In this document: piece by piece, positions 107-43,662 of the stretch
Layout of the letters: each line of letters begins with the position of its first letter
Position numbering within the stretch: the stretch's first letter is position 1
Source of the DNA: an uncultured cyanobacterium
Lineage (GTDB): Bacteria > Cyanobacteriota > Cyanobacteriia > PCC-6307 > Cyanobiaceae
Reading direction: 5' to 3'
Assembly (NCBI GenBank): GCA_903871775.1
Contig: CAIQIA010000015.1
Location: 1-44,008 of the forward strand
Length of the DNA stretch: 44,008 nt
Translations under genes and position numbers: made by a program
The notes under the pieces: model-generated
Told to the model about the DNA's origin: nothing
Seen by the model: the letters and a program-made list of their open reading frames with translations, nothing else
Database searches by the model: none

Positions 107-222
107 ATCCGCAGCGGCTGTAGCCGGTTTTCCCCGGACCTGCCCGGACGACCCAAAAGCTCAGATCGCCTGCCCCACAGGGGTTTTGGGATTTCCCCGG
201 ATCCCCTCGGATCCTGTCAAAA

Positions 223-307
223 CGGAGAGGGTGGGATTCGAACCCACGGAAGGTTGCCCTTCAAACGATTTCGAGTCGTTCGCTTTCGACCACTCAGCCA
301 CCTCTCC
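223..307 (-). tRNA. tRNA-Ser (anticodon CGA)
   Basis: On the minus strand a full type II tRNA folds. The acceptor stem pairs GGAGAGG (307-301) with CCTCTCC (230-224), followed by discriminator G at 223. The D-arm contains GGCTGAGTGGTCGAAAGC. The anticodon stem AACGA/TCGTT holds the loop CTCGAAA, giving anticodon CGA for UCG codons. A long variable arm (AAGGGCAACCTT) and the T-arm GTGGG-TTCGAAT-CCCAC complete it. No CCA is encoded. The 3' end faces the window's left edge and the repeat array at 59-106, so it is a candidate integration target. Confidence 0.97.
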
Positions 308-367
308 AGTGCCTGCCCCCCAGGGCTGACTCCCCTACCCTAGCCGGCCCCCCTCGAGCGCCCGGCC

Positions 368-11085: not shown

Positions 11086-13314
<2,229 letters not shown>

Positions 13315-40321: not shown

Positions 40322-40957
40322 ATGCCGCTGCCGACGTTGCCGCCCCCGCCGCTGCCCGACCGCACCCCCGTGGCCGACCTGGGCACCACCGCCAGCCTGC
40401 CCGCCGACATCGAGGGTCGGCTGCGTCTTCTGCCCAGCCCCCCACCGCGGCTGCCCTCTCCATGGTTCAAGGTCGCCGCCGGCAGCGCCGACACCCCGGC
40501 CCTGCTGAACTACCCCCTCGATCTGCCGCCCTACGAGGTGAGCCGCTTCGGCTGGCGCTGGTCAGACAGCCGCCAGGCCTGGCGCATGCACGCCGGCCTG
40601 GACCTCAGCGCCGATGAAGGGGACCCGGTGCGTCCCCTGCGCAGCGGTCGGGTGGCGCTGGTCGACTGGATCAGCGGCTATGGCCTCACGGTGGTGGTCG
40701 ACCACGGCGATGGCCACGAAAGCCTCTACGGCCACCTGTCGGCGGTGGATGTGCGTCCCGGCGAGACCGTCGGCCCCCAGGATCTGCTCGGCCGGGTGGG
40801 GCAGACCGGATCCGCCAGCGGCCCGCACCTGCACGTGGAGTGGCGCCTGCGCGACAGCGGCCGGGTCTGGGCCCTCGATCCGGCCCCCCTGCTGCCACCA
40901 TCCCTGGCAGGATTGGAGCGCCGCCCGGCCCCGGCCGGCACGGCCCTGCTCCCTTAG
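40322..40957 (+). CDS. M23-family (LytM) peptidase
   Basis: The 211-residue product contains an M23 zinc metallopeptidase domain with MHAGLDLSADEGDPVRPL (first zinc ligands His and Asp), HGDGHESLYGHLSAVDV, and GPHLHVEWRL (catalytic HxH). This cuts peptidoglycan crosslinks or activates amidases. From ATG 40322 there is a Pro-rich N-terminus and no clear signal peptide, so export is unexplained; the true start may be upstream. The last 10 bases of the gene, including the stop, are also the first bases of tRNA-Arg. Confidence 0.85.
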   Translation: MPLPTLPPPPLPDRTPVADLGTTASLPADIEGRLRLLPSPPPRLPSPWFKVAAGSADTPALLNYPLDLPPYEVSRFGWRWSDSRQAWRMHAGLDLSADEGDPVRPLRSGRVALVDWISGYGLTVVVDHGDGHESLYGHLSAVDVRPGETVGPQDLLGRVGQTGSASGPHLHVEWRLRDSGRVWALDPAPLLPPSLAGLERRPAPAGTALLP

Positions 40958-41021
40958 CTCAGCTGGATAGAGCAGCTGCCTTCTAAGCAGCCGGTCGATG
41001 GTTCGAATCCATCAGGGGGCG
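40948..41021 (+). tRNA. tRNA-Arg (anticodon TCT)
   Basis: The acceptor stem GCTCCCT/AGGGGGC has one G-T pair. The D-arm is GCTC-AGCTGGATA-GAGC. The anticodon stem GCTGC/GCAGC holds loop CTTCTAA, giving anticodon TCT for AGA codons. The T-arm is GATGG-TTCGAAT-CCATC, with discriminator G at 41021 and no encoded CCA. The 3' half (about 41001-41021) is the probable attachment core for the element beyond, because an integrase gene starts 127 bp after the tRNA. The 5' end overlaps the M23 peptidase stop. Confidence 0.97.
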
Positions 41022-41116
41022 TTTCAATCAGGGCCTGAGCTTTCAGCCAAAAAGCCTTGCTGCAACAGGCTTTAGGGCTGACAGCCTCTGCCGGTCTCTG
41101 CTCGCCCGTGCCAAGC

Positions 41117-41149
41117 TGTGAGAAGGACCTTCTCACATACCTTCTCACA
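41117..41149. repeat. Palindrome plus third direct copy before the integrase
   Basis: TGTGAGAAGG (41117-41126) and CCTTCTCACA (41128-41137) are perfect inverted arms around a single A. CCTTCTCACA recurs at 41140-41149, a 12-bp step, reaching the integrase start. Likely roles are integrase arm sites or an operator where integrase or the HTH protein autoregulates. The interval 41022-41116 also has a small hairpin-like stretch (AAAGCCTTGCTGC, then CAGGCTTTA). Confidence 0.7.
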
Positions 41150-42455: not shown

Positions 42456-43364
42456 TTACTGCCGGCCAGATGGCTTGATGTAGCCGGTGTCGATCAGGAA
42501 GGCGCGAAGAGCTTCTGGGAAGGAGCTGTAGACGATCTCACGTCCCTGGCACTTGCCATTGCTATCAAGTTCTCCCTTGCACTCCGTCAGGCCCCAATCA
42601 GAAGATGCTTCATAACGCTGGGTCATCCGGTCCCAGCCGTCATACAACTCACCCACAAGGGCTTTGTTGGCAACGTACCCGGCCAGAAACCCATTTGGAG
42701 ACTGAGGATCCTTCTGTTGGAACCACTCGGCCATGCGCTGCAGGTTGCGTCGATGGATTGGTTTAAATTCGGGGCGATGGGACACATCCACAAACTCATC
42801 GCCTTGCAGCTCCCAGATACGGGCAGGTGCTGAGCTGCAGGCATAGCAGGCAAAGCGATAGAGGAACCGATTGTCGACGTCGACGATCAAAAACCGGCCA
42901 TTCCTCAACGGATCCTCTGCAGGTGAATCGCCCCCGTCGAAGGGCCCGAGTGCCACCTCCTGCCAGGTCTGCCCGCTGCGATCGCTGGTAAGAACCTGGA
43001 TCTGATTGCAGCAGTGCGCACCTCCGGTGAAGGACGAGAGCAACACTTCGGGGTAGGGATTCGACGGATCCATTTCCGCGATCTGAACCAGCGCAGCTGG
43101 ACTACCGCCCCCCTTCTCAGCGCCGATGAGGCGACCGACCTCGCTGCCATTCACACGAACGACCGCAACTGGCTGGAGCACGTTCACGCCGGATTCGTTG
43201 ATCCGCCGCTGCTGCTCAGCACTGACTTCAACAACCCCGCTCCGCAACGCACCGCTCATGCGGCTGTTCTCGTAATCCATCTTCAGGATCTGGGCGACGG
43301 CCGGACTGCCGCAGATAGCACCCACTCCGATCAGGCAGGCAATGACACGAGCTCGCAGAGACAC
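42456..43364 (-). CDS. Secreted protein of unknown function with a GGAHCC motif
   Basis: The 302-residue product has a signal peptide (MSLRARVIACLIGVGAICG, cleavage near AVA-QILK). It then has a domain with SSFTGGAHCCNQIQVL, VDVDNRFLYRFACYACSSAP and WELQGDEFVDVSHRPEF, and a helical C-terminal part (RNLQRMAEWFQQ, ELYDGWDRMTQRYEASSDWG) with a final Cys pair. The Asp/Gly turns and paired Cys suggest a beta-propeller-like exported fold. No family is recognised. It is carried as cargo in the element and points toward the integrase, with 11 bp between stops. Confidence 0.7.
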   Translation of the reverse strand: MSLRARVIACLIGVGAICGSPAVAQILKMDYENSRMSGALRSGVVEVSAEQQRRINESGVNVLQPVAVVRVNGSEVGRLIGAEKGGGSPAALVQIAEMDPSNPYPEVLLSSFTGGAHCCNQIQVLTSDRSGQTWQEVALGPFDGGDSPAEDPLRNGRFLIVDVDNRFLYRFACYACSSAPARIWELQGDEFVDVSHRPEFKPIHRRNLQRMAEWFQQKDPQSPNGFLAGYVANKALVGELYDGWDRMTQRYEASSDWGLTECKGELDSNGKCQGREIVYSSFPEALRAFLIDTGYIKPSGRQ

Positions 43365-43425: not shown

Positions 43426-43662
43426 TCATTGCGTCAGATGCCTGCGGCTCCAGCCAGTGATGGTGGCCTCCACGTTCTCGATGTGCCACTGCAGGGGGCC
43501 CCGGCCCTGGGTGCAGCCCCAGCGGCGGTAGTGCTTGCCCGGGGTGAGCACCCCCCGCAGCCGCAGCTGGCGGAGGGTTTCGCGGCTCATGCCCAGGGCA
43601 GCGCACGCTTCTGCTGTCGTCACCCAAGCCCGCTGGCGGGTTGGCGTTGTGGCGGTGTCCAT
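43426..43662 (-). CDS. Excisionase-like/MerR-type HTH protein
   Basis: The 78-residue protein has a winged helix-turn-helix: RAWVTTAEACAALGMSRETL then RQLRLRGVLTPGKHYRRWG, ending ENVEATITGW. This is the layout of phage excisionases and small MerR-like DNA-binding proteins (helix 2 AEACAALGMS). It may control or direct excision together with the integrase. ATG 43662 overlaps the stop of the upstream gene (TGATG), so the two are translationally coupled. Confidence 0.75.
   Translation of the reverse strand: MDTATTPTRQRAWVTTAEACAALGMSRETLRQLRLRGVLTPGKHYRRWGCTQGRGPLQWHIENVEATITGWSRRHLTQ

Follow-up and report, generated by a model that had tools for sequence, protein, structure and literature searches.

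What are the three short repeats that lie between a tRNA-Arg gene and the start of a tyrosine integrase gene in the window, the 44,008-bp stretch of cyanobacterial DNA analysed here, and which protein reads them? The window is one entire contig of a 2.57-Mb draft genome (96% complete), in a family where genomes of 1.6-1.8 Mb are common; a Cyanobium/Synechococcus-like picocyanobacterium, the reading of the earlier note, is compatible with this. From the position, period and spacing of the repeats, the pairing of the two element ends, the decoupling of the repeat letters from the tRNA target and the predicted fold of the integrase, we conclude that the array very probably consists of arm-type sites on which the lambda-type tyrosine integrase encoded next to it would dock with its N-terminal domain. 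The core of the att site is best explained as the tRNA anticodon loop.

The repeat array at tRNA-Arg

The region contains the following features.

40947-41022, plus strand: tRNA-Arg(TCT), the integration target (ARAGORN)
40980-41022, plus strand: putative att core, from the anticodon loop to the tRNA 3' end, repeated at the distal end of related elements
41039-41085, integrase-side arm: inverted repeat of 19 nt, 84%, with a 9-nt loop (repeat search)
41107-41117, plus strand: accessory block CGTGCCAAGCT, with a conserved TGCCA core
41117-41126, minus strand: inverted arm copy TGTGAGAAGG, exact in the close Arg class only
41128-41137, plus strand: putative arm-type copy 1, CCTTCTCACA, a direct copy
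41140-41149, plus strand: putative arm-type copy 2, CCTTCTCACA, 12 bp after copy 1 and overlapping the integrase start codon
41149-42444, plus strand: tyrosine integrase, 431 aa (PHROG_1 integrase, E 1e-13)
42456-43364, minus strand: 302-aa protein with no Pfam match
43426-43662, minus strand: HTH_17 protein, 78 aa (Pfam HTH_17, E 6e-7)

The repeats that the earlier note had claimed beside tRNA-Arg are real: TGTGAGAAGG, CCTTCTCACA and CCTTCTCACA occupy 41117-41149, at the distance that it gave (95-127 bp beyond the tRNA 3' end), and touch the integrase ATG, the A of which is the last base of the array (41149). A single A separates TGTGAGAAGG from the first CCTTCTCACA and TA separates the two CCTTCTCACA copies. 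The inverted repeat at 41039-41085 lies between the tRNA and the array, is partly kept in relatives and was not recognised as a terminator; a promoter scan found no ordinary σ70 promoter or terminator in the array region.

Such repeats might have arisen by chance or by local tandem duplication without function, and it speaks for this that the 44-kb window holds a second exact match at a 12-bp step (11/11), at 13178, in addition to the array. The 20 first-order Markov copies of the window contain no such match (0/20). The palindrome of 10-1-10 form is found in the window at the array alone, and three occur in the 20 Markov copies.

Related integrases and the two ends of their elements

Relatives of the integrase were sought in 400 genomes of the family, and 364 had matches at E 1e-6, many of the weakest of which are presumably generic tyrosine recombinases. 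We read the upstream DNA of 88 distinct relatives (31-100% identity) and found a tandem repeat (at least 8/9 matches, within -110 to +30 of the integrase start) in 81 of them and no clear array in the remaining 7. The dominant period is 12 bp, and 11 bp marks a group of distant relatives. Among shuffled sequences, 141/1760 reached at least 8/9 with a flat distribution of periods, none being preferred, and a 9/9 match is present in 66/88 relatives against 79/1500 random 140-bp pieces of the window. The earlier note had named related integrases that lack arrays or vary in spacing as the observation that would speak against it; instead, arrays are the rule in this survey and their spacing is near-constant. 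Three distant family relatives (L164, L165 and L168, 28-33% identity) have 11-bp-step repeats near the integrase gene (TTTTGCACACA, TTTTTTACACG). Matches at the level of the class outside the family have E values of 1e-14 or weaker, most span the core-binding and catalytic region only, and arrays are sparse among them. No isolated phage carrying this integrase was matched among 50,697 records.

The letters of the array vary among the integrases: CCTTCTCACA, CATCTCACC, TTCTCTTGCA, AATCTCTCCC, TTTGCTCACA, CTGCTCACAC, TTCTGCGCGA, TTTTGCAAAC, CAGCTCTCAC and GTCACTCGCC were all found. The tRNA targets vary as well (Arg-TCT, Gly-TCC, Gly-CCC, Val-TAC, Pro-TGG and Ala-GGC), and one arm motif is common to Arg, Val and Gly targets while several different motifs occur at the Arg target and likewise at the Pro target, indicating that the motif has no part in the choice of target. 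The earlier note had taken one inverted and two direct copies as the conserved unit. This form is ruled out, because an inverted copy (at 9/10) is present in 14 of the 38 non-redundant members and the direct copies number 2-4 per array; the conserved feature is a pair (2-4) of direct copies on both arms, and an inverted copy is a trait of some members only.

Measured from the anticodon, the array begins at 142-143 bp in the majority of the Arg, Gly and close Val members, with a few Arg, Gly and Val readings of 134-147 bp owing to a repeat unit called in another phase; it begins at 132-136 bp in close Pro members and at 120-123 bp in a distant Val/Ala group. Because the reference point was the middle anticodon base in some tRNAs and the third in others, these distances are accurate to ~1 bp. 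Compared with Arg elements, Pro elements have the opposite half of the tRNA facing the integrase, and the distance from the anticodon is similar. Therefore, the ruler starts at the anticodon and not at the tRNA 3' end.

The pattern CCTTCTCACANACCTTCTCACA, with 2 mismatches allowed, has ~80 sites in 36 of the 400 genomes, and the reversed pattern has zero sites in the same 400 genomes. Sites of this type are found not only beside the integrase: equally oriented ones occur at the far end of the same elements, where they adjoin a second copy of the tRNA stretch between anticodon and 3' end. In complete elements the far-end motif is 45-85 kb away from the integrase-side array, a distance that excludes linkage as the cause of the shared motif. 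The recurrence of the motif at the far end, which the earlier note had overlooked, identifies what kind of motif it is. The motif is present at both ends in Arg and Gly elements of four genomes (G157, G125, G217 and G208). In complete genomes with several tRNA-Pro cores, the same pairing was read: in two elements of G204 the integrase-side motif equals the motif to the left of the next tRNA-Pro core (TTTGGGTGCC and CTGTCCAACC), and integrase-side and far-end motifs pair likewise in G098 (TTTGCTCAC), G023 (CTGTCCAACC) and G101 (TTCTCTTGCA). The two motifs of G204 and those of G098 and G101 are mutually different, which makes the pairing informative. In one further genome, tRNA-Pro cores (L195, L201 and L205, G062:C1:864946-934453) are in opposite orientation, and their arms seem to match up solely on the assumption that an inversion took place between two of the cores.

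Since period and spacing are kept in 81/88 relatives while the letters differ, chance is excluded; together with the zero sites of the reversed-pattern control, this rules out chance or simple duplication, which we regard as having next to no probability. The same short motif does lie on both arms flanking the core in relatives.

The putative core stretch is retained by itself in L007, L009 and L010, which have just the 3' part of the tRNA, and it is repeated at the distal ends of L139-L142, L146, L155 and L156. The first distal copy is 88 bp from the core in 18/20 distal ends from two tRNA classes; of the other two, one starts at 76 through the loss of a copy and the other escaped placement by the search pattern. 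In the attP of such an element, the core would have arm copies at ~88 and 76 bp on one side and at ~145 and 157 bp on the other, with an arm-to-arm span of 233 bp. A single integrase would bridge these sites by placing its N-terminal domain on an arm copy and its other domains on the core, and copies one turn apart (11-12 bp) would bring two integrases to roughly the same face of the DNA. A 49.9-kb viral contig contains a single core with both arms, 233 bp apart (88 + 145), the arrangement that an excised circle or a tandem junction would show. The distal arm of the window's own element was not found, nor was a second tRNA-Arg half, in the draft genome at 96% completeness.

The integrase and other candidate readers of the array

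The window integrase has no Pfam match. In its predicted model (mean pLDDT 76.8, built with 18 sequences), residues 6-79 form an N-terminal fold of one helix, three strands and a second helix, and a low-confidence link (aa 103-126) stands between this domain and the core-binding and catalytic parts. Among PDB structures, full-length lambda Int in the excision complex matches best (5j0n, E 3.6e-5), with a loose global match (TM 0.3-0.4, pTM 0.45). The N-terminal domain is thus predicted to be a lambda-like arm-binding fold ahead of the core-binding and catalytic domains. R275, R372 and H396 are invariant and Y405 is nearly so in the 18 sequences, their catalytic roles being assigned by inspection, and Tyr369 replaces the usual first His of HxxR.

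In the 38 non-redundant members, motif distance correlates with N-terminal domain distance (r 0.48), and the correlation persists when catalytic-domain distance is removed (partial Mantel r 0.24, P 0.0005); the converse, motif against catalytic domain given the N-terminal domain, gives r 0.14 and P 0.07. Motif distance also correlates with the other integrase domains (r 0.45-0.46), and the signal of the N-terminal domain is accordingly modest and due in part to phylogeny. In addition, the target tracks the N-terminal domain once the catalytic domain is accounted for (r 0.38). Strict modularity would not lead one to expect this, and the domains are therefore not cleanly separable by the Mantel test.

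Because the integrase-side copies run into the integrase start codon, autorepression is expected: an integrase bound there, next to the ATG, would shut down its own gene and probably also represses int in this way. This arrangement raises the alternative that the array is an operator only, by which the HTH protein or another repressor of the element controls int, with no role in recombination. The copies do abut the ATG, the HTH gene is close by, and in KplE1, the attL of which extends over the int promoter, integrase and RDF both act from attL to repress int (PMC2951348). Against it, the motif recurs 45-85 kb off at a near-fixed distance from the core, and elements with differing array letters encode HTH proteins that are 71-95% identical, far above the identity of the accompanying integrases. 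It is 94.7% identical in L019 (Gly-TCC), 93.4% in L020 (Gly-CCC) and 86% in L031 (Pro), whose integrases are 54-59% identical to that of the window. A protein so conserved while the letters vary is unlikely to read those letters, and we consider the operator-only explanation improbable.

The HTH protein has weak PHROG excisionase matches (E 0.0017-0.05), and att arms are targets of excisionases and of RdfS-type wHTH proteins (PMC11963761). The copies might then be binding sites of an excisionase, or directionality factor, and not of the integrase, with this excisionase-like gene close by as the candidate. However, the copies are on both arms and their letters follow the integrase while the candidate factor hardly changes, and a better candidate for its site is the invariant CGTGCCA block, making excisionase sites a very improbable account of the copies. 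TGCCA is found 15-22 bp before the first arm copy in 26/26 members at 49% identity or above (TGCCA anywhere in 60 bp, 5% in the shuffle control), usually inside CGTGCCA(A/G)nCT, and it is constant while the arm letters change. From these sequences we infer that the HTH protein is the directionality factor and the CGTGCCA block its site; an invariant block beside a highly conserved excisionase-like HTH protein is possibly new. The arm copies themselves are, in our preferred reading, left to the integrase. The 302-aa protein (42456-43364) adjoins the integrase gene in related elements as well and is mostly 83-90% identical there.

The tRNA-Ser array, stacked elements and known systems

A second array lies at the other end of the window.

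58-107: tRNA-Ser array, with TGACGGTATAG at 58-68 (inverted), CTATACCGTCA at 85-95 and ATACCGTCA at 99-107
222-308, minus strand: tRNA-Ser(CGA), the target of the second element (tRNA search)

This array is kept in 12/200 other genomes at 84-88%. The earlier note had described it as having the same form as that at tRNA-Arg. The 12-bp direct step is indeed shared, whereas the inverted copy differs both in its gap (16 bp at tRNA-Ser, 1 bp at tRNA-Arg) and in its side, which is the integrase side at tRNA-Ser and the tRNA side at tRNA-Arg. In relatives of the tRNA-Ser element, the integrase gene points away from the tRNA, starts ~60 bp past the array and encodes the domains Arm-DNA-bind_3 (E 1e-22 in L134), Phage_int_M and Phage_integrase. 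By comparison with them, a P4-type integrase would start on the minus strand ~2 nt beyond the contig end. A plus-strand frame that ends at base 60 was ruled out as this integrase, since the gene is on the other strand. A possible cause of the contig break before the integrase start is that repeated copies of this integrase in the genome interrupted the assembly. As this array belongs to a different, P4-type integrase, the proposal that different integrases use a common site architecture is supported, in that tandem copies at an 11-12-bp step lie at a near-constant distance from the anticodon.

The elements with related integrases are bordered by tRNA, contain a tyrosine recombinase and are 45-85 kb long, features cited for tycheposons that prophages show as well. 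One of them (L210-L212, G157:C16:191560-235400), 45 kb long with an integrase 82% identical to that of the window, encodes a primase, helicase, large terminase, portal, scaffold and major head protein, as well as Rad52, a Gp157/Gam-like protein and, as cargo, a P-type ATPase and a chromate transporter. No tail gene was recognised among its proteins scanned, which were part of the ORFs. Candidate identities for it are a defective prophage, a capsid-forming satellite and a tycheposon-like element. The genome of the window has a further family integrase at tRNA-Gly(CCC) and two broken copies (G000:C11:3307-4533, C3:3-941 and C18:74279-75123).

Where elements are stacked at tRNA-Pro, neighbours share an arm motif at 1/28 junctions versus 4.6 by permutation (P 0.03). 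This is one exploratory test on related sites, for 28 junctions with arrays on both sides, in which some left-side arrays are weak calls and identical tandem copies may collapse in draft assemblies. That stacked elements rarely share an arm motif is possibly new. Many elements stack at one tRNA with identical cores, so a core could not tell an integrase its own ends, and divergent arm motifs at fixed spacing would. The deficit of sharing motivates, without establishing it, the idea that arm motifs form an address code at stacked tRNAs and that a shared HTH factor reads CGTGCCA for all of them, an idea that we put forward as a tentative and rather doubtful one. If it is true, an element could settle beside residents that have a different arm motif. 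Two ~56 kb elements in tandem at one tRNA-Gly(CCC) (L157 and L138, G208:C18:84000-196800) have the same arm motif.

For picocyanobacteria, these results provide a rule for both ends of an element, namely a core, copies at ~76/88 and 145/157 bp, an 11-12-bp step and the same motif. They also provide a group of natural integrases whose arm motif, tRNA target and protein domains each vary on their own, useful for the study of DNA choice and of how many elements one tRNA can hold. In the literature searched, from which the founding tycheposon paper is absent, such arm sites are not described for this family. Tycheposons, cited as 4-200 kb (PMC10872708), are alike by description, integrases aside, in having tRNA-linked tyrosine recombinases and variable cargo in picocyanobacteria. 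Another picocyanobacterial family is located at tRNA-Phe/Cys, and its mechanism was called not yet known (PMC10187409).

As in lambda, short repeats are present on both attP arms and binding by the N-terminal domain would be expected from the model; the elements here differ from lambda in their 11-12-bp period, in two copies per arm as a rule and in a core that lies in the tRNA anticodon loop. KplE1 has the same order of tRNA and integrase in one orientation, with an att arm overlapping the int 5' region as found here, but its proteins are IntS and TorI, and here the repression of int would follow from the overlap, no promoter having been recognised. The attP of ICEMlSymR7A contains five arm motifs, and intS is directly downstream of attL (PMC11963761); that element is conjugative and its motif is different. 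In mycobacteriophages of cluster K (CrimD and Pixie), 11-bp putative arm-site pairs flank a tRNA/tmRNA core beside int, Pixie attP having a pair on one side and three on the other with one inverted copy, and related mycobacteriophage integrases with the same core can differ in arm letters (PMC3203893). Since such arm pairs and the overlap of att and int in KplE1 have already been described, we file the array, by analogy, as a known kind of site, the arm-type. The likeness to cluster K is in the pairs of arm repeats around a tRNA core and in letters that vary between related integrases, whereas the host and the integrase family are others and the layout is traced here in ~80 elements with near-fixed spacing.
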